From Opitutia bacterium Tous-C1TDCM (GTDB lineage: Bacteria; Verrucomicrobiota; Verrucomicrobiia; Opitutales; Opitutaceae): a stretch of 64,000 bases of DNA. Below the pieces are notes generated by a model that was not told the origin of the DNA, did no database searches, and saw only the letters and a list, made by a program, of their open reading frames with translations. The position numbers were made by a program, and so were the translations under genes. The stretch spans positions 1-64,000 of the forward strand of contig NEUS01000003.1 of NCBI GenBank assembly GCA_002288455.1, given 5' to 3'. Positions within the stretch are counted from its first letter, which is position 1. Every line of letters begins with the position of its first letter. Shown piece after piece: positions 15,998 to 63,544 of the stretch.

Positions 15998-16002
15998 GGA
16001 TA

Positions 16003-16118
16003 AATGCGGATTTCGGAATGCGGATTGCGGAGTGGGAAAGGCAGATGAGGAATGAAAAACGCGCCGTGGATCGGTCAGTTGTCCGGCACTCCGCATTCCG
16101 CACTCCGCATTCCGCAAT
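16003..16118. repeat. Heptad array R1: inverted arms of degenerate ANTGCGG units
   Basis: Left AATGCGG ATTTCGG AATGCGG ATTGCGG AGTGGGA (16003-16037); right CCGCATT CCGCACT CCGCATT CCGCAAT (16091-16118); core about 16038-16086. Confidence 0.85.
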
Positions 16119-16125
16119 TATCCCC

Positions 16126-22684: not shown

Positions 22685-22843
22685 GTGCGGATTGCGGAAT
22701 GCGGATTGCGGAGTGCCGGAATAATCCAAGCGCGGCCGGTCGGTTAAAGTGGGTCTACGCATTTCCGATTTTTGGATTTCTGGTTTTCCAATTCGCAATC
22801 CGCAATCCGCAATCCGCGATCCGCAATTGGCAGATCCGCAATT
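22684..22843. repeat. Heptad array R3: inverted arms filling a convergent gap
   Basis: Left AGTGCGG ATTGCGG AATGCGG ATTGCGG AGTGCCGG (22684-22719); right 22758-22842, about 12 units such as CCGATTT, TTGGATT, TCGCAAT, CCGCAAT x2, CCGCGAT, GGCAGAT, CCGCAAT. Confidence 0.9.
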
Positions 22844-25140: not shown

Positions 25141-25144
25141 GGGG

Positions 25145-25316
25145 AAACCGGAGTTCGGAGACCGGAGTGCGGAAACCGGAGACCGGAAATCGGATACCGG
25201 AAGACTGAGACCGGAAGGCAGAATGCTGAAGGAGGAGGCCGGGAATGGAGGATTCCGAGATTGGTCTCCGGTTTCCGAATTCCGAATTCCGGTTTTGGCA
25301 CTCCGCAATTGGCCGT
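25145..25316. repeat. Heptad array R4: longest array, inverted arms
   Basis: 14 consecutive heptads 25145-25242 (AAACCGG AGTTCGG AGACCGG AGTGCGG AAACCGG AGACCGG AAATCGG ATACCGG AAGACTG AGACCGG AAGGCAG AATGCTG AAGGAGG AGGCCGG); right arm 25255-25316 (CCGAGAT, CCGGTTT, CCGAATT x2, CCGGTTT, TGGCACT, CCGCAAT, TGGCCGT). Confidence 0.92.
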
Positions 25317-26099: not shown

Positions 26100-26235
26100 G
26101 GCATGCAGTTGAGAGTTGAAAGTTGAAGGTTGAGAGAACGATCCGTCGAGAAACGGAAAATACAATCGCAGCCCCGGACCTGAAAAACCGAGCGGTTCTG
26201 CTCTCAACGCTCAACCAAGCTCGCTCAACTGCATG
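26100..26235. repeat. Heptad array R5: GTTGARR inverted arms with core
   Basis: GTTGAGA GTTGAAA GTTGAAG GTTGAGA (26108-26135), core GAACGATCCGT..., right TCTCAAC GCTCAAC CAAGCTC GCTCAAC (26202-26229); outer ends GCATGCAGTTGAG / CTCAACTGCATG. Confidence 0.88.
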
Positions 26236-26242
26236 AGTCCGC

Positions 26243-27532
26243 TCAGGCGGTGAGGATTTTGCGCTGCTTGGCGTCGTAGGTCGTCTTCTTGCCGGTGTCG
26301 TAGGAGATGACGGCCATGAGGACGGCGACGGCGTGCTGGTAGCCGGCGTCGATCGACGCGTGCGGGGTCTCGCCGCTGCGCATGCACTGGAGCCAATTCA
26401 GGAAATGGTCGGGGCGCTCGACCGGCACGACTTCCTGTTTGCCGCGGATCTTGCCGTCGCGTTTCGGGCCGCCCTCGGCGCTGTAGGTCGGGGCGTTCCA
26501 ATTGCCGACGTCCAAGGTGCCCTTGTCGCCGAAGAATTTCCGCAGGCTGCCGGAGCTGTTGCCGAAGTTGTTCGAACTCGTGACCATCATGCCGGCCGGG
26601 TACATCCAGGTGGCCATGACGTTGTCGGGGGTGGTGAATTTGTTGTCGTCCTTCCAGTAGGTGACGCCGCCGATGCACATGCAGGATTCGGGCATGCCGC
26701 AATCCGTGACGTAGTGCATGAGATCGAGGAAGTGGGCGCCCCATTGCGGGACCGGGCCCTGGCAGAATTCATAGTAGCCGTACCAGGCGGCGTATTGGCG
26801 GGCGTCGAAGGCGCGGGGTTTGCGGTCGCCGAGGAAGGCCTTCCAATCGCAGTCGGCTTCCTTCACGTCGCGGCCGAGGTAGCTGTACCAGTAGGGCTTC
26901 TCGGCGTTGCGGGTTTCGTCGACGCGGGTGATTTTGCCGAGGATGCCGCTCTTCACGAGTTCGCGGGCGCCGGCGATGCCGGGGAGGCTGCGGAGCTGGG
27001 TGCCGACCTGGATGATGCTGCCCTTGGCCTGCGCGGCCTTGGCGGCGTCGAAGGCGCGGACGAGTTTGTCCATTTCCGTGGCGAGCGGCTTCTCGATGTA
27101 GATGTGTTTGCCGGCTTTGGCGCAGGCCTCGAGGTGCTCGGTGTGAAGGTGGTCGGGGGTGGCGACCATGACGGCGTCGATGCCGTCCATGGCGAGCAGC
27201 TCGCGGTAGTCGGTGAACTTCTTCGGCTCCTTGCCGGACCAGCCTTTTGCCTTGGCGGCGGCCTGGTCGCGGTGCGTTTTCCAGGTATCGCAGACGGCGA
27301 CGATATCGAAATTGGCGGCGGCGGCATGCTTGTGGATGCCGGTCATGTGGGCGGTCTGGCCGCGGCTGCCGCAGCCGAGCTGGGCGATGCGGATGCGGGA
27401 ATTGGCGCCGATGACGCGCTTGTTTTCGGCGGCGCTGAGACCGGCGGGCGTGGCGGCGGCGAGGGCGGCGCCGGCGGCGAGGGTCGCGGACGATTTCAGG
27501 AATTCACGACGGGGTTGGGAGGACGGGTTCAT
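26243..27532 (-). CDS. Gfo/Idh/MocA family oxidoreductase
   Basis: RREFLKSSATLAAGAALAAATPAG leader, RIRIAQLGCGSRGQ, YIEKPLATEMD. Confidence 0.92.
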   Translation of the reverse strand: MNPSSQPRREFLKSSATLAAGAALAAATPAGLSAAENKRVIGANSRIRIAQLGCGSRGQTAHMTGIHKHAAAANFDIVAVCDTWKTHRDQAAAKAKGWSGKEPKKFTDYRELLAMDGIDAVMVATPDHLHTEHLEACAKAGKHIYIEKPLATEMDKLVRAFDAAKAAQAKGSIIQVGTQLRSLPGIAGARELVKSGILGKITRVDETRNAEKPYWYSYLGRDVKEADCDWKAFLGDRKPRAFDARQYAAWYGYYEFCQGPVPQWGAHFLDLMHYVTDCGMPESCMCIGGVTYWKDDNKFTTPDNVMATWMYPAGMMVTSSNNFGNSSGSLRKFFGDKGTLDVGNWNAPTYSAEGGPKRDGKIRGKQEVVPVERPDHFLNWLQCMRSGETPHASIDAGYQHAVAVLMAVISYDTGKKTTYDAKQRKILTA

Positions 27533-27533
27533 G

Positions 27534-27621
27534 AAAATTGGGAAAACGGAAAATTGGAAAATCGGGAAATTGGAAAAGCGGGAAACGGGGAAAGCGGAAA
27601 ATTGGGAAACGGGAAACGGCG
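27534..27621. repeat. Octad array R6: 10 consecutive RAAANNGG units
   Basis: AAAATTGG GAAAACGG AAAATTGG AAAATCGG GAAATTGG AAAAGCGG GAAACGGG GAAAGCGG AAAATTGG GAAACGGG (27534-27613). Confidence 0.93.
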
Positions 27622-27622
27622 G

Positions 27623-28531
27623 TCAGAGCGCGAGGATGCGGTCGAGTTTGCCGGAGATTTCGGCGAGGTACTGTTCGTCGGTGAGGTTGGGGGAACGGTA
27701 TTGTTCGGTGATCATCCAGCCGGCGTACTTCTGGCGGTCGAGGGCGGCCATGACGGCGGGCCAATCGCTGTCGCCGGTCATGAGGTCGGATTGGAAACCG
27801 GCGCGCGCGCCTTTTTCGCCGGCGAGTTTGCGGCTGAATTCCTTCACGTGGACGGCGGCGATGCGGGAGCCGAGGACGTCGATCCAATGCTGGGGCCAGC
27901 CGGTGTTGACGATGTTGCCGACGTCGAAATGCCAGCGGACGAACGGGGACTTGAACTGGTCGACGTAGGCGGCGGCCTCGAGGGGGCTGAGGAGGAAACT
28001 GTTCCAGACGTTTTCGATCGCGATGGCGACGCCGAGTTCTTCGGCGAGGGGCACGGCCTTGCGGATTTCGGCGACCGAGCGGGCGTAGGCGTCGGGGTAG
28101 GAGATGTCCTTGTTGACGACACCCGGGACGAGGAGAACGGATTTGGCACCGTAAGCTTTGGCGTCGCGGAGACCGTGGAGCAGGCCATCGAGGCCGATCT
28201 GGCGTTCGGAGATGCTGGGGTGGGAGAGGGGCTTCGCCCAATGCGTGCTGATGACGACGCTCGGGATTTCGAGCCCGTGGGCATCGCGGGCGGCGAGGAC
28301 CTCGGTCTGGTTCATCGCGCTCATGACCTCGACGCCGTGGAAACCGGCGGCGCGGAGCAGTTTGAACTTTCCGTCGACGCTCAAGTTTTTCGCCGTGGGG
28401 CTGTTGAGCGTGGAGTACATGAAGCCCTTCTTCAGTTTGCGGCCCGGGGCGGCGCCGTCGGCGGCGCGGAGGGACACGGCGCCGGCGGCGGCGAGGAGGG
28501 CGGAAGAATGGAGAAACGTGCGGCGGTGCAT
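27623..28531 (-). CDS. Sugar phosphate isomerase/epimerase (xylose isomerase-like TIM barrel)
   Basis: MHRRTFLHSSALLAAAGAVSL leader; LLRAAGFHGVEVMS, VAIAIENVWNSFLLSP, WHFDVGNIVNTGWP. Confidence 0.9.
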   Translation of the reverse strand: MHRRTFLHSSALLAAAGAVSLRAADGAAPGRKLKKGFMYSTLNSPTAKNLSVDGKFKLLRAAGFHGVEVMSAMNQTEVLAARDAHGLEIPSVVISTHWAKPLSHPSISERQIGLDGLLHGLRDAKAYGAKSVLLVPGVVNKDISYPDAYARSVAEIRKAVPLAEELGVAIAIENVWNSFLLSPLEAAAYVDQFKSPFVRWHFDVGNIVNTGWPQHWIDVLGSRIAAVHVKEFSRKLAGEKGARAGFQSDLMTGDSDWPAVMAALDRQKYAGWMITEQYRSPNLTDEQYLAEISGKLDRILAL

Positions 28532-40382: not shown

Positions 40383-40481
40383 GACCACGGATGGCACGCA
40401 TGAACCCGGCTCAAGCCGGATTCATGCAGTCGAGAGTTGAAAGTTGAGAGTTGAGAGATCGATCCGTGACATCCGTGGTCC
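40383..40481. repeat. Composite repeat R7: GACCACGGATG inverted ends enclosing a hairpin and a GTTGARA heptad array
   Basis: GACCACGGATGGCACG ... CGTGACATCCGTGGTC; GTCGAGA GTTGAAA GTTGAGA GTTGAGA (40429-40456) then GATCGATCCGT. Confidence 0.85.
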
Positions 40482-42000: not shown

Positions 42001-43482
42001 ATGAGCGACCTTCCCCCCGACATCTCCCATGACCAGCACGCGGTCCGCCGGCAAAAGCTGGCCGAAATGCGCGCCGCCGGTTCCGATCCGTTTCGCGCCA
42101 ACGTCGCGACCACGCACTTCTCGGGAGACGCGCTCAAAGCCTACGTCGAGGGCCAGGAAAACACCGTCCCGGTCACCGTCGCCGGCCGCCTCGTCGTCAT
42201 CCGCGACATGGGCAAAAGCCAATTCGTCAAGATTCTCGACCAGCAGGGGCAGATCCAGCTCTACGTGAAGAAGGACGTCGTGGGCGAGGCCGCCTACGTC
42301 GCGTTCAAGAAGCTCGATCTCGGCGACATCGTCGGCGCCACCGGCACGCTCTTCAAAACCAAGACCGGCGAGGTCACGGTGCGCGTCGACCGCTATGTGC
42401 TCGTGGCCAAGGCGCTCCGGCCCTTGCCGGAAAAATGGCACGGCCTGAGCGATGCGGAGACGGTTTACCGGCAGCGTTACCTCGACGTGATTGTGAATCC
42501 GGAATCGCGCGCGCGCCTGATGCTGCGTTCGAAGATCGTCTCGCACGTGCGGCGTTTCCTCGAGGACCGGCAGTTTCTCGAAGTCGAGACGCCCGTGCTC
42601 GAAGCCACCGCCGGCGGCGCCGCGGCCCGGCCCTTCGTCACGCACCACAACGCCCTCGACGTCGATTTCTTCCTGCGCATCGCGACGGAGCTGCGGCTCA
42701 AGCGCATGCTGGTCGGCGGCTTCGACCGCGTGTTCGAGATCGGGCGGATCTTCCGCAACGAAGGCGTTTCCCGCCGCCACAATCCCGAATTCACGATGCT
42801 CGAGGTTTACCAGGCCTACAGCGATTACCGCGGGATGATGGGGCTGATCCGCGATTTGATGACCTCGCTCGTGCGCGAGGTGATCAAGCCGGCCGACGGT
42901 TCCCTCAAGATCAAGCACGCCGCGAGCGGGCAGGACATCGACTTCGGCGGCGAATGGCGCGAGGTGAAGTACAAGGACCTGATCCGCGAGGCCACGGGCG
43001 ACGCGGAGTGGTTCGCGCGCTCCGAGGCGGAAAAGATCGCGAAAGCCGAAGCGATGGGCCTCGGCGTCAACCCGGCCTGGGAGGAATTCGAAATCACCAA
43101 CGAGATCTTCTCGAAACGCATCGAGCCGACCTTGATCCAGCCGACCTTCGTCACGCACCTGCCGAAGGAACTTTGCCCGTTGGCCAAGATCACGCCGGAC
43201 GACCCGACGACAATCGATGTCTTCGAGCTCACGATCGGCGGCATGGAAGTGGCGCCGGCGTATTCGGAACAGAACGACCCCGACGTGCAGCGCCAGATGT
43301 TCGAGGCGCAGGCCGGCGAGGAAAAGCAGAACATCGACCACGATTTCCTGCTCGCCCTCGAGCACGGCATGCCGCCCGCCGGCGGCATGGGCGTCGGCAT
43401 CGACCGCCTCTGTATTTTGCTCACCGGCGCGGAAAGCATCCGCGACGTGATCCTCTTCCCGCAGCTGAGGCCGGGAAGCTGA
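42001..43482 (+). CDS. lysS: Lysyl-tRNA synthetase (class II)
   Basis: Full length; VEGQENTVPVTVAGRLVVIRDMGKSQF, RIFRNEGVSRRHNPEFTMLEVYQAY, GMGVGIDRLCILLTG. Confidence 0.97.
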   Translation: MSDLPPDISHDQHAVRRQKLAEMRAAGSDPFRANVATTHFSGDALKAYVEGQENTVPVTVAGRLVVIRDMGKSQFVKILDQQGQIQLYVKKDVVGEAAYVAFKKLDLGDIVGATGTLFKTKTGEVTVRVDRYVLVAKALRPLPEKWHGLSDAETVYRQRYLDVIVNPESRARLMLRSKIVSHVRRFLEDRQFLEVETPVLEATAGGAAARPFVTHHNALDVDFFLRIATELRLKRMLVGGFDRVFEIGRIFRNEGVSRRHNPEFTMLEVYQAYSDYRGMMGLIRDLMTSLVREVIKPADGSLKIKHAASGQDIDFGGEWREVKYKDLIREATGDAEWFARSEAEKIAKAEAMGLGVNPAWEEFEITNEIFSKRIEPTLIQPTFVTHLPKELCPLAKITPDDPTTIDVFELTIGGMEVAPAYSEQNDPDVQRQMFEAQAGEEKQNIDHDFLLALEHGMPPAGGMGVGIDRLCILLTGAESIRDVILFPQLRPGS

Positions 43483-43587
43483 AAATCGGGAAAGCGCAAA
43501 ATCGGAAAAGCGGAAAACTCGACCCGCTGATTTCAGGCTGCATCGCCGTTTCCCGCTTTCCCAATTTCCCGCTTTTCCACTTTTCTG
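43482..43587. repeat. Octad array R8: inverted arms of RAAANNGG units
   Basis: AAAATCGG GAAAGCGC AAAATCGG AAAAGCGG (43482-43513); right CCGCTTTC CCAATTTC CCGCTTTT CCACTTTT (43553-43584). Confidence 0.92.
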
Positions 43588-43590
43588 TCG

Positions 43591-48659: not shown

Positions 48660-48798
48660 AGTTCGGGGTTCGGCGTTCGGGGTTCGGCGTTCGGAGTTTG
48701 GCGTTCGGAGTTGGGGCGCGGACGTTGGTTCTACGGCATTGCGCCCGAGCAGGCGGCGCGCTCTCCGGCTTTCAACTTTCAACTTCCGACTTTCAACT
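48660..48798. repeat. Heptad array R11: NGTTCGG left arm, AGTTGAA right arm
   Basis: AGTTCGG GGTTCGG CGTTCGG GGTTCGG CGTTCGG AGTTTGG CGTTCGG AGTTGGG (48660-48715); right CTTTCAA CTTTCAA CTTCCGA CTTTCAA (48769-48796). Confidence 0.93.
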
Positions 48799-59683: not shown

Positions 59684-62600
59684 GGGCCGCGGGACCGGCG
59701 GCCGGCGTGGGACTCGAGGAGGGTGCGGATGTTTTCCCTACGGTAAGTCTTCGCGAGCGGCTCCAGCGCATCGGCCAACGGGTCGCCGCGCAAGTCCGCG
59801 AGGCGAAGCCGCAGCAGCGAAATTTCGCCGCGGCGGGCGATGCCGAGCAACTCGTCGATCACCGCGGGATCCAGCGCGGTACCGGCGCGGGCCGGCGCGG
59901 CGGCGGGGCCGGCGGCCGTTTCGCCGGTCCACTCGACCTGAAGCGCCATGCCGAGGCGGGCGAGCAGTTCGTCTTCGCGGAACGGTTTCGGAAGAAAATC
60001 GTCGCACCCGGCGGCAAAGGCGTCATCGCGCCCGAAGCTCAGCACCGACGCGGACATCGCGATCAGCTTCAGGCCTGAGCCGTGCGCGGCGCGGAGCCGT
60101 CGGGCGAGCGTGAAGCCGTCCATGCCGCCCATGCGCAGGTCGAGCAGGACGAGATCCGGCCGCTCGGCGGCGGCGAGCGCGAGGGCTTCCTCGCCGGTCA
60201 CAGCCTCGCTGATCTCGAAACCGAGCGGCGCCAGCAACTCGCGCAGGACGCTGCGGTTGATCGCGACGTCGTCGACGACGAGCAGGCGACGCCGCGGTCC
60301 GCGGTAGCCGGTGATCTCGCCGGCGTGGCGGCGTTCGGCGGCGGCATCGGCGGCGAGCACCGGCAGCCGGACGGCGAAGCGGAAGGTCGAACCGGCGCCG
60401 GGCGCGCTGTCGAGTTCGAGCGTGCCGCCCATCAGTTCCACCAAGCGGCGGCTGATCGCCAAGCCGAGGCCGGTTCCGGGTTCGGGCGGCCGGCCGTCGG
60501 TCGCCTGCTGGAACGGCTGGAAAAGACGGTCGCGGTCCGCGGCGGCGATGCCGACGCCGGTGTCGCGGACAACGAAGGCGACCGTTTCGGTCGCGGCATC
60601 CCGGATCGCAATTTCGAAAACGACGCTGCCGTGCGGGGTGAACTTGAGGGCGTTGCCGAGCAGGTTGTCGAGGACCTGCCGGAGCTTGATCGCGTCGCCG
60701 ATCACGAGGTCGGGCAAGTCCGGGGCCGGGGTGAAGGCGAAGGCGAGGCCCTTCTTTTCAAAGCGGTCGCTGAGGGCGGCGGCGACATCGCGCAGCAGTT
60801 GCGGCAGATGGAAGGGAGCCGGCGCCAATTCCATGCGGCCCGCCTCGATCTTCGAGAAATCGAGCACCTCGTTGATCATGCGGAGCAGATGCTCGCCGGC
60901 GGATTGCACGATCTGCACGCGTTCGCGGTTCCGCGGAGTCAGTTCCTTGTCCTTGTTCAGCACCTGCGCGTAGCCGATGACGCCGTTGAGCGGGGTGCGC
61001 AGCTCGTGGCTCATGTTCGCGAGGAAAAGGCTCTTCGCGCGGTTGGCGGTATCCGCGGCATCCTTTGCCACCTTGAGTTCGGCCGTGCGTTGCGCGACGA
61101 GCTGTTCGAGACGGGTGCGTTCGCGTTCCGCGTGGCGCAGGCGCCAGCGGATGAAGCCGGCGACGGCGGCGAGGGCGGCGACGGCGTAACCGGCGAGGGC
61201 GCCGGGGCTGCGGTGCCACGGGGGCGCGACACGGAAGGTGAGCCGGGCCGTCTTGCTGACGAAGCCGTCGGCATCGACGGCGCGCACCTCGAAGACGAAG
61301 GGGCCGCCGATGAGGTTGGTGAAGACGGTTTCGTTGCCGGCCGCCGGAGCGGACCACTCTTCGCGGAAGCCGAGCAGGCGGGTCTGGTACCGCAGCGCCG
61401 CGCCGGAGCGGTAGCGGGGTGCGGCGTAGCGGAGGGTGGTGGGCAAATTGGAAAAGGGCAGGTGCAGTTCGGTTCCCGGTGCGGTGGACCACGCGCGTTC
61501 GCCGGTCATGAAGCGCCGGATCACCGGGGTCCAAGGTGCGCCGGCCCGTTGGGTATCCAGCGTGTCCAATTCCATTCGGGCGATGGCGGTGGGACTCTTG
61601 GTCCAAAGGGCGGGCCGGTCGCCTTCCGCTTCGACCAAAATCAGTCCGGCGCCAAACCGGCCGACTCCGGCCTGCCAATGGGCCGGCGCATCCTTCCATC
61701 CGAACGACTCCGGCCCGGTCGCGCGGAAGTAGCCGAAGGGGCGCACGGCGGCGACCGTACCGGACCACGCCGCGGTCCAGGCCCGGCCGACGGCGTCGGC
61801 GATGACGGGCATGAAGCGCAATTGGTTCACGCCCTCGATCCGGTAGCGGTCATCGGCCGAGAAGGTCCTCGTGGCCGCCTGCCGCCGGTACATGCCCGTG
61901 TCTGTGAGGAAATGGAGTTCGTCGAAGAGGGAGAAAACGCCCGTCCAACTTTTCCCTTCCGGCAAGCCGGCTTGCCCGAGGGGATGGGATTCCGCCGTGA
62001 CGCGGGTCCAGGCGGCGTCGGACGGAGCCAGCCGCCAGAATCCGCTGGCGGCCGTGCCGACCCAGAGCGAGCCGTCGGCGGCTTCGGTTCCGTTCCAGAG
62101 TAGCACCCCGGGGGCAACGTGAGCAAACGCCGCGTTGAGCCATCGCGCAGGTCGAGCACGTGAACCCCGCCGTCGGCGCCGGCGACGAAGAACCGCCCTG
62201 GCGTCGCGAAGCTGGTCTTGATCATGGTGATCTTCGCCTTCGGATCCAGTACCCGGCGCCGACCCGCGGAAGTCAGGAGTTCAACATGGTCGTCGCTGCC
62301 GAAGAGCAGACCGGCCGAAGTGGAGCGGAGGTTGTCGCAGCTTTCCGGGACCCGCGGATCCGACACGAACCGCGCGGGGATGCCGGCGGCGGGCTTGCCC
62401 GCTTCGAGGCGCATGAGGCCGTGGGTGGAGCCGGCGTACAACACGCCGTCGTGGCGCACGAGCGAGCCCGAAGAGCCGATGGGGAACGCGTTGCGTTCGT
62501 CGAAGACCGTGACGCCCGGGGCGAGGTCGAGGCGGATCAGGCCGTTGGCGGTCCCGAGCCAGAGCCCGAGGTCGGCGTCCAGCGCCGCCCCGAGAATCGC

Positions 62601-63536
62601 GGGGTTGGCCAGGCCGGTCTTGGCATCGAGGACTTGCGCGCCCTGGAGCGCGGCATCGGCCAAGACCACCCCGCGGCTGTTGGCGCGGACAAAGACCGCC
62701 CGGCCGTCCGGCAACGCCAACACGCGGAGCAGCGGCACGGCGACGAGCGGATCGAGCACGGACGCGATCTTCCCGAGCCGGCCGGACACGGGGTCGAAGG
62801 TGTACAGGCCCTCGCCTTCAATCACGGCGAGCGCGGTGGCACCGGGGCGTTCCAGCAGTTGGATTTCGCGTCCGGCCGTCTGGCGCCCTTCGGCGAGCGC
62901 GCGAAAATCGCCGTCGGCGAAGACCAGCAGACCGCGGTTCGAGTCCTGCAAAAATACCTGGTCGCCGACCGTGAAAAGCTGGGCCCGGGTTTCCGGGGGC
63001 AACGGCAGCAACCGTGCGCGGTCGGCGGCAAAATGCAAAATGCCGTTGCTGGTGGCGGCGAAGACGCCGTCGCGCCCGGCGACGAGCGCTCGCATCCGGC
63101 CGAACTTGCCCTCCGCCCCCGGCAACCGGGACGTGCGGGAAACGTACCGCAGTTGGCCGTCGGCCGCGGCGGCGGCGATGATCCCGATCTCGTTGTCCCC
63201 GCCCGCCCACATTGTGCCTTCGCGGTCCCGGCAAAGCGCCGTCACGTAGGTGGCGGGGACAGCGATTTTTTCGTGGGTCACACCATCGTAGAGGATCGCG
63301 GCGTGATAGGTGCCGAAAAGGGTGAAGCCCTCGGCGGTATGCGCCACCGCCGTGACGCGGCTGAAGCCGTCGTAGTCGTCGGAGGAAAAATAACGCTGCA
63401 GCGGCAGACCGAGTTCGGCGGGCAACGCCGCGGCGGGGCCGGAGGCTTTTTCGGCGGCGCGGTGGGGTGTTGCCAAAACGGCAACCGCCGCCAGCAGGGC
63501 GGCACAAAAGGGGAAGCGGGCGCGCGGGCGGACCAC
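59680..63536 (-). pseudogene. Hybrid sensor histidine kinase (periplasmic propeller + Y_Y_Y + HisKA + HATPase + REC) with apparent -1 nt frameshift near 62106-62115
   Basis: N-terminal frame ends ...RRLLTLPPG; continuation VLLWNGTEAADGSLWVGTAASG... is in another frame; MSHELRTPLNGVIGYAQVL; RRRLLVVDDVAINRSVLRELL. Confidence 0.75.
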
Positions 63537-63544
63537 GCGCGCAG

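Follow-up and report, generated by a model that had tools for sequence, protein, structure and literature searches.

The 64,000-nt window, that is the whole stretch of DNA analysed here, contains two neighbouring minus-strand genes whose intervening gap, read directly from the sequence, measures 90 nt (27533-27622). Upstream lies a gene for a xylose-isomerase-like TIM-barrel protein, named an epimerase in the first-pass annotation. It is followed in the same direction by a Gfo/Idh/MocA oxidoreductase gene, whose product carries an RREF-type Tat signal as judged by eye. An array of 8-nt units occupies the whole gap (Table 1). Direct reading confirms what had been annotated, namely ten consecutive octads RAAANNGG in a fixed frame with a variable dinucleotide (NN in order: TT, AC, TT, TC, TT, GC, CG, GC, TT, CG). 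The Gfo/Idh leader is indeed made of array, although the first octad starts 1 nt from the start codon and not 2 nt as first described. For both flanking genes the mRNA sense is the pyrimidine strand, with the unit CCNNUUUY. The locus carries one array arm only, with no partner arm. Neither a sigma-70-like promoter nor a terminator was found within the gap, and Rfam gave no match above gathering score anywhere in the window. At the window end, about 1.4 kb (62107-63544) contain no called gene.

Table 1. Positions of the genes, arrays and elements discussed in the text. Positions without a contig label refer to the window.
Feature	Position	Strand	Remarks
Gfo/Idh/MocA oxidoreductase	26243-27532	-	Pfam and gene calling; start codon CAT 27530-27532
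Ten perfect RAAANNGG octads	27534-27613	+ (purine strand)	Consecutive
Terminal unit GAAACGGC	27613-27620	+	Out of step with the octads
Xylose-isomerase-like TIM-barrel (AP_endonuc_2)	27623-28531	-	Pfam and gene calling; stop TCA 27623-27625
GCGGANT heptads	15998-16125	both	Convergent pair
GCGGANT heptads	22685-22843	both	Convergent pair, spans the gap stop to stop
CGGARAC-type heptad arms	25143-25310	both	Convergent
Second octad site	43482-43584 (43483-43590 in the comparison with G007)	+ arm 43482-43517; - arm 43549-43584	Convergent pair; GCGGATT heptad pair in G007
GTTCGGA heptads with GTTGAAA heptads	48661-48798	GTTCGGA +; GTTGAAA -	Convergent; two families in one gap
GTTGARR elements	26107-26133; 40428-40457; L041:16165-16453; L039:2983 (G007 L089:18393-18548)
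Perfect GAAATTGG arrays	L041:1-121; L042:1-123; L054:11010-11132		14-15 units; reach contig ends
Octad pair of different frame	G018 L208:1822-1962		GACTAAAAGACCAAGG / GTCCCTTA
Family-swapped gap	L047:2842-3004 vs L076		GTAGYGR vs CACGGAG-type convergent arrays
Family-swapped gap	L051:6255-6349 vs L088		CAAGGCGCAAAG-type vs GTAGCGG convergent arrays
Whole element gained or lost	L047:4043-4157; L047:379-552; L039:2983

The run is highly unusual for its local composition: when these 90 nt were dinucleotide-shuffled 20,000 times, the longest octad run obtained was 4, against ten observed. Other copies are plentiful. The window holds 15 matches at up to two mismatches (0.02 expected), and the source genome (G000) contains 169 three-unit RAAANNGG matches compared to 0 for a reversed-pattern control. 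The nearest relative (G007) has 107 three-unit matches and a third species 12, with few or none in the others. Nearly all octad blocks (92 of 96) are intergenic. Among the matches listed in an all-genome scan, NN-varied arrays like that at 27534-27613 come only from Opitutaceae MAGs; the other listed matches with at least three NN types are mostly plain purine-rich runs. We found no account of such arrays for Verrucomicrobia among the open-access papers searched. Stretches totalling about 1 Mb of G000 and G007 were analysed, most of them picked near octad matches, which biases the densities but not obviously the orientation tests given below.

The composition of the unit was analysed on 66 non-homogeneous arrays (308 units). 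The most frequent NN are TT (26%), TC (18%), GC (18%) and CG (10%), and the two bases are strongly interdependent (p 2e-30). The last unit is enriched in CG (16 against 6.4 +/- 2.1), and in 14 of the 66 arrays GAAACGG comes immediately after the final octad. Non-randomness of NN, which had been put forward for checking, is thus borne out for composition, but neighbouring units are not alike beyond chance (47 identical pairs against 43 +/- 4.4). Block copying of arrays was also considered and is ruled against, as three-unit words are not common to different arrays beyond chance (9 against 6.3 +/- 2.2).

Over about 40 aligned units, divergence between G000 and G007 is 0-10% for AAA and 2-6% for GG (about 5% overall), 28% for R, and 44% and 34% for the two NN positions (about 39%), where the frame value is somewhat too low because a match in G000 was the basis for selecting units, and alignment slips could inflate the NN value. 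Other aligned intergenic bases diverge by 16% and 4-fold sites by 21%. The octad frame therefore evolves about eight times slower than the dinucleotide it encloses, and the emphasis that the first-pass annotation placed on this pattern was justified.

These figures bear on a neutral origin, in which slippage or ectopic conversion grows 7/8-nt microsatellites that are tolerated between genes, any orientation being due to strand-asymmetric formation or to removal where harmful. The almost exclusively intergenic position of the octads fits such an origin, as does the absence of a known function for comparable arrays in Xanthomonas (PMC4692102). Unit number also varies: the Gfo/Idh gap measures 90 nt in G000 and 43 nt in G007, and perfect GAAATTGG arrays of 14-15 units in G000 compare to 8 perfect units in the G007 gap corresponding to L054/L041. 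However, slippage would homogenise whole units, and it explains neither a fixed frame around a free NN nor an NN that diverges faster than 4-fold sites. The hallmark of slipped-strand microsatellites (homogenised units, with neighbours most alike) is seen only in the homogeneous GAAATTGG arrays and not in the octads. At three places these perfect arrays reach contig ends, where they probably broke the assembly.

The array at the Gfo/Idh gap is not an isolated case: oriented intergenic arrays of 7/8-nt units occur across the genome and form a class to which it belongs. Over 372 kb of G000, tandem repeats between genes show periods of 7 (65 rows), 8 (26) or multiples of these, other periods being rare; repeats within genes have mainly periods 9, 12, 15 and 18. 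At least ten unit motif families can be distinguished among the intergenic arrays. An octad pair of a different frame in genome G018 shows that period 8 is not confined to RAAANNGG. Purine content drops from left to right over the gaps whatever the gene orientation, and in block counts nearly every family has its purine strand leading away from whichever gene is nearer. For octads the ratio of away to toward is 64:22, and the other main families are more strongly oriented. The exception is the GCTGANN family, which always forms the innermost block (first in 0 of 21 ordered pairs). With this family left out, the gaps with arrays on both strands are convergent in 34 cases and divergent in none. 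The orientation rule is kept in 35 of 41 arms from five further species of Opitutaceae.

Paired arms tend to belong together: in 24 of 44 pairs both arms of a gap are of the same family (6.5 expected), and strong folding is predicted for two-arm gaps (median z -4.2, compared with -0.5 in array-free gaps). Along with the constant convergence, this is what one would expect if the arrays were sites for an architectural protein or the arms of a bidirectional hairpin (a terminator or transcript stabiliser), with 27534-27613 as a half-site; the paired octanucleotide sites of Geobacter have likewise been proposed to bind IHF/HU (PMC2700814). Yet two arms sharing a gap resemble each other hardly more than arms taken from different gaps do (0.916 against 0.897), so exact base-pairing between arms is unsupported and does not appear to be selected. 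Since the Gfo/Idh gap, moreover, has a single arm and no fold, we consider a binding or hairpin element quite unlikely here.

Gene starts and gene stops favour different families. Where both flanking genes run in the same direction, the purine 5' end of octads points to the start-codon side in 55 blocks and to the stop side in 7 (p 2e-10); start-to-stop ratios are 13:0 for AAGGCGR and 11:27 for GTTGARR. Taking all gaps together, octads (71:19) and GTTGARR (11:54) differ with p 7e-15, these p-values being somewhat too small as blocks sharing a gap are not independent. Octads lie at a median distance of 27 nt from the start codon (lower quartile 10 nt). The downstream genes show no common function or functional bias among the nine examined. 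Neither this sorting nor the 34:0 convergence is predicted by neutral repeat growth, which we therefore regard as rather unlikely, though with an appreciable chance of being right. Part of the GTTGARR family occurs as elements about 45 nt long whose ends, CATGCAGTTGAGAG ... GAGATCGATCCG, are conserved; an inverted arrangement with TIR-like GCCGGACTCATGCAGTTG is frequent. Species differ in whether they carry them, which points to a mobile element of the MITE type.

Orthologous gaps show how quickly the arrays change. In G007 the Gfo/Idh protein is 97% identical and the shortened gap holds about four octads with other NN. An array at this gap is found only in the two closest genomes, and orthologues at 60-81% identity carry none. 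In the less close orthologues with the same gene order the gap is short, array-free and also without Shine-Dalgarno. The array is therefore not needed for the Gfo/Idh gene across the family; its origin and growth fall within this lineage. A comparison of 138 orthologous gaps gives a similar picture. Many array gaps keep the family and change the unit number, array length thus differing between species (one genome per species), and in some cases a whole element is gained or lost (Table 1). In three gaps both arms are of another family in G007 while the flanking genes are conserved. One of these is the second octad site of the window; at the other two the flanking proteins are 94-99% identical, and at L051:6255-6349 families beyond the ten were identified by eye alone. 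That close relatives differ in the presence of arrays and in their family would also be compatible with the neutral origin discussed above.

A further possibility is a templated writer, a putative enzyme with a short template that would extend 3' ends at breaks between genes by degenerate units of 7/8 nt, joining of the ends yielding convergent arms of the same family. It would account for convergence, for one family per pair, for an NN resembling independent draws and for the three swapped gaps. On the other hand, it leaves the start/stop preference unexplained, and the spacers of the swapped gaps align no better than chance. Without significant homology in the spacers, rewriting in place and exchange of a whole cassette are indistinguishable and fit equally. 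We consider a templated writer very improbable. In a broader form, a single system that reads sequence (such a writer, or a protein binding the repeats in steps of 7/8 nt) might maintain interchangeable families at gene boundaries, octads where genes start and GTTGARR where they stop, with whole convergent pairs being exchanged between close species. This is speculative as well, and we give it only a small chance.

What the array might do at the Gfo/Idh gap is best approached from the mRNA. Here the gap is 81% pyrimidine (C34 T39 A9 G8), shows CC every 8 nt and has a predicted fold of 0.0 kcal/mol (MFE). Octad-led initiation regions (-60..+20) have a median MFE of -2.5, against -23.1 for other leaders (p 2e-15). 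Array-free leaders also lean towards pyrimidine (outward purine 0.60 at starts against 0.50 at stops), and the last six leader bases are C-rich (0.47-0.50) in both G000 and G007. The reported lack of a Shine-Dalgarno at Gfo/Idh holds, but the array is not its cause, since the signal is absent genome-wide and in the array-free orthologues. Leaders of G000 and G007 show no Shine-Dalgarno enrichment (SD-like words 6%, against 5-7% after shuffling); a 16S gene, with its anti-SD tail, was not found in either assembly.

We tentatively favour, at somewhat less than even confidence, a single-arm, structure-free pyrimidine leader that would aid translation of Gfo/Idh, with a selected frame and a free spacer. 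An unfolded pyrimidine leader is the best-supported role because octad-led regions are weakly folded and the genome has no Shine-Dalgarno signal. Such a leader could keep the initiation region open in a genome of 67% G+C without a detectable signal of this kind, and the regular pyrimidine tract could serve as a ribosome landing site via S1-like domains or a cold-shock-type protein. The CC..UUUY frame would then be under selection either because it is contacted itself or because it keeps the tract unfolded, NN would be a free spacer, and the unit number, which shifts quickly, may tune expression. Against this reading, composition alone is enough to explain the weak folding, twelve octad blocks are in convergent gaps, where there is no start codon to serve, and stop-codon arrays of the same class must act otherwise.

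The same composition also invites a comparison with Rho-dependent control. A C-rich, G-poor, unstructured RNA could be a Rho loading site acting in operon polarity or attenuation, with antisense transcripts meeting similar tracts at 3' ends. The C/G ratio reaches 4.8 in 78 nt at the Gfo/Idh gap and has a median of 4.6 in octad gaps (1.8 in other gaps), the length and absence of structure suit a rut site (PMC6407284), and given the orientation rule any transcript entering a gene reads the pyrimidine strand. The published C spacing of every 11-13 nt is however absent from the Gfo/Idh gap and no more frequent in octad gaps than in others (0.79 against 0.80). Also, strong termination immediately ahead of the start codon would switch off the gene that follows. 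We find a Rho element improbable.

The octads had initially been described as the clearest departure from known repeats in the window. This does not hold, as they follow the same placement rules as the surrounding heptads and published arrays (PMC4692102, PMC2700814, PMC4679880). In Xanthomonas, GGGAATC arrays form convergent plus/minus pairs (Rehm et al. 2015, PMC4692102). Both these and the GGGGA(C/T)T arrays of Nostoc are intergenic, with the purine strand being the non-coding strand just upstream of ORFs and the coding strand just downstream; gene context is kept and length varies between related strains, and no function is known (PMC4692102). The array class is already known, because the Xanthomonas arrays obey the same orientation and convergence rules. 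Intergenic tandem units, a fixed purine core and the placement rule are common to all, and the octads likewise are dispersed tandem units of 7-8 nt with the purine strand away from the nearer gene and convergent neighbours. They are nevertheless not the GGGAATC family proper: the Xanthomonas and Nostoc arrays have period 7, are G-quadruplex capable and are described with one family per genome, whereas the octads have period 8, mostly GG to GGG runs and a hypervariable NN, in a genome with at least ten families and different ones at starts and stops.

Other known systems share some of these traits. The paired octanucleotide/heptanucleotide 'global regulator binding sites' of Geobacter metallireducens (GTTGCTYN octads or heptads), for which IHF/HU binding was suggested (PMC2700814), are also tandem, on opposite strands, variably spaced, present in many copies and degenerate at some positions, but the motifs differ and single arms before starts prevail here. 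The 7-nt TAACTGA direct repeats of marine Beggiatoaceae stand directly before starts, apparently replacing the Shine-Dalgarno, with S1 and CSP as candidates (MacGregor 2015, PMC4679880). Short repeats a few nt from start codons of genes of mixed function are common to both; TAACTGA, however, is an exact motif with rare variants and is not pyrimidine-rich, whereas here the units vary and the whole genome is without a Shine-Dalgarno signal. REP/BIME and MITE sequences have similar dispersed, inverted intergenic arrangements, and some GTTGARR elements have TIR-like ends, but the octad arrays vary in length and lack a conserved palindrome. New here are the start/stop sorting of families, the slow frame against a fast NN, neighbouring units that are not alike beyond chance, and the family-swapped gaps.

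For years, intergenic 7/8-nt arrays with a set orientation have been recorded from unrelated bacteria, with no function assigned to them. The Opitutaceae lineage has many families at once, allowing testable claims on translation without Shine-Dalgarno, and its close genome pairs show arrays that have grown, vanished or changed family.
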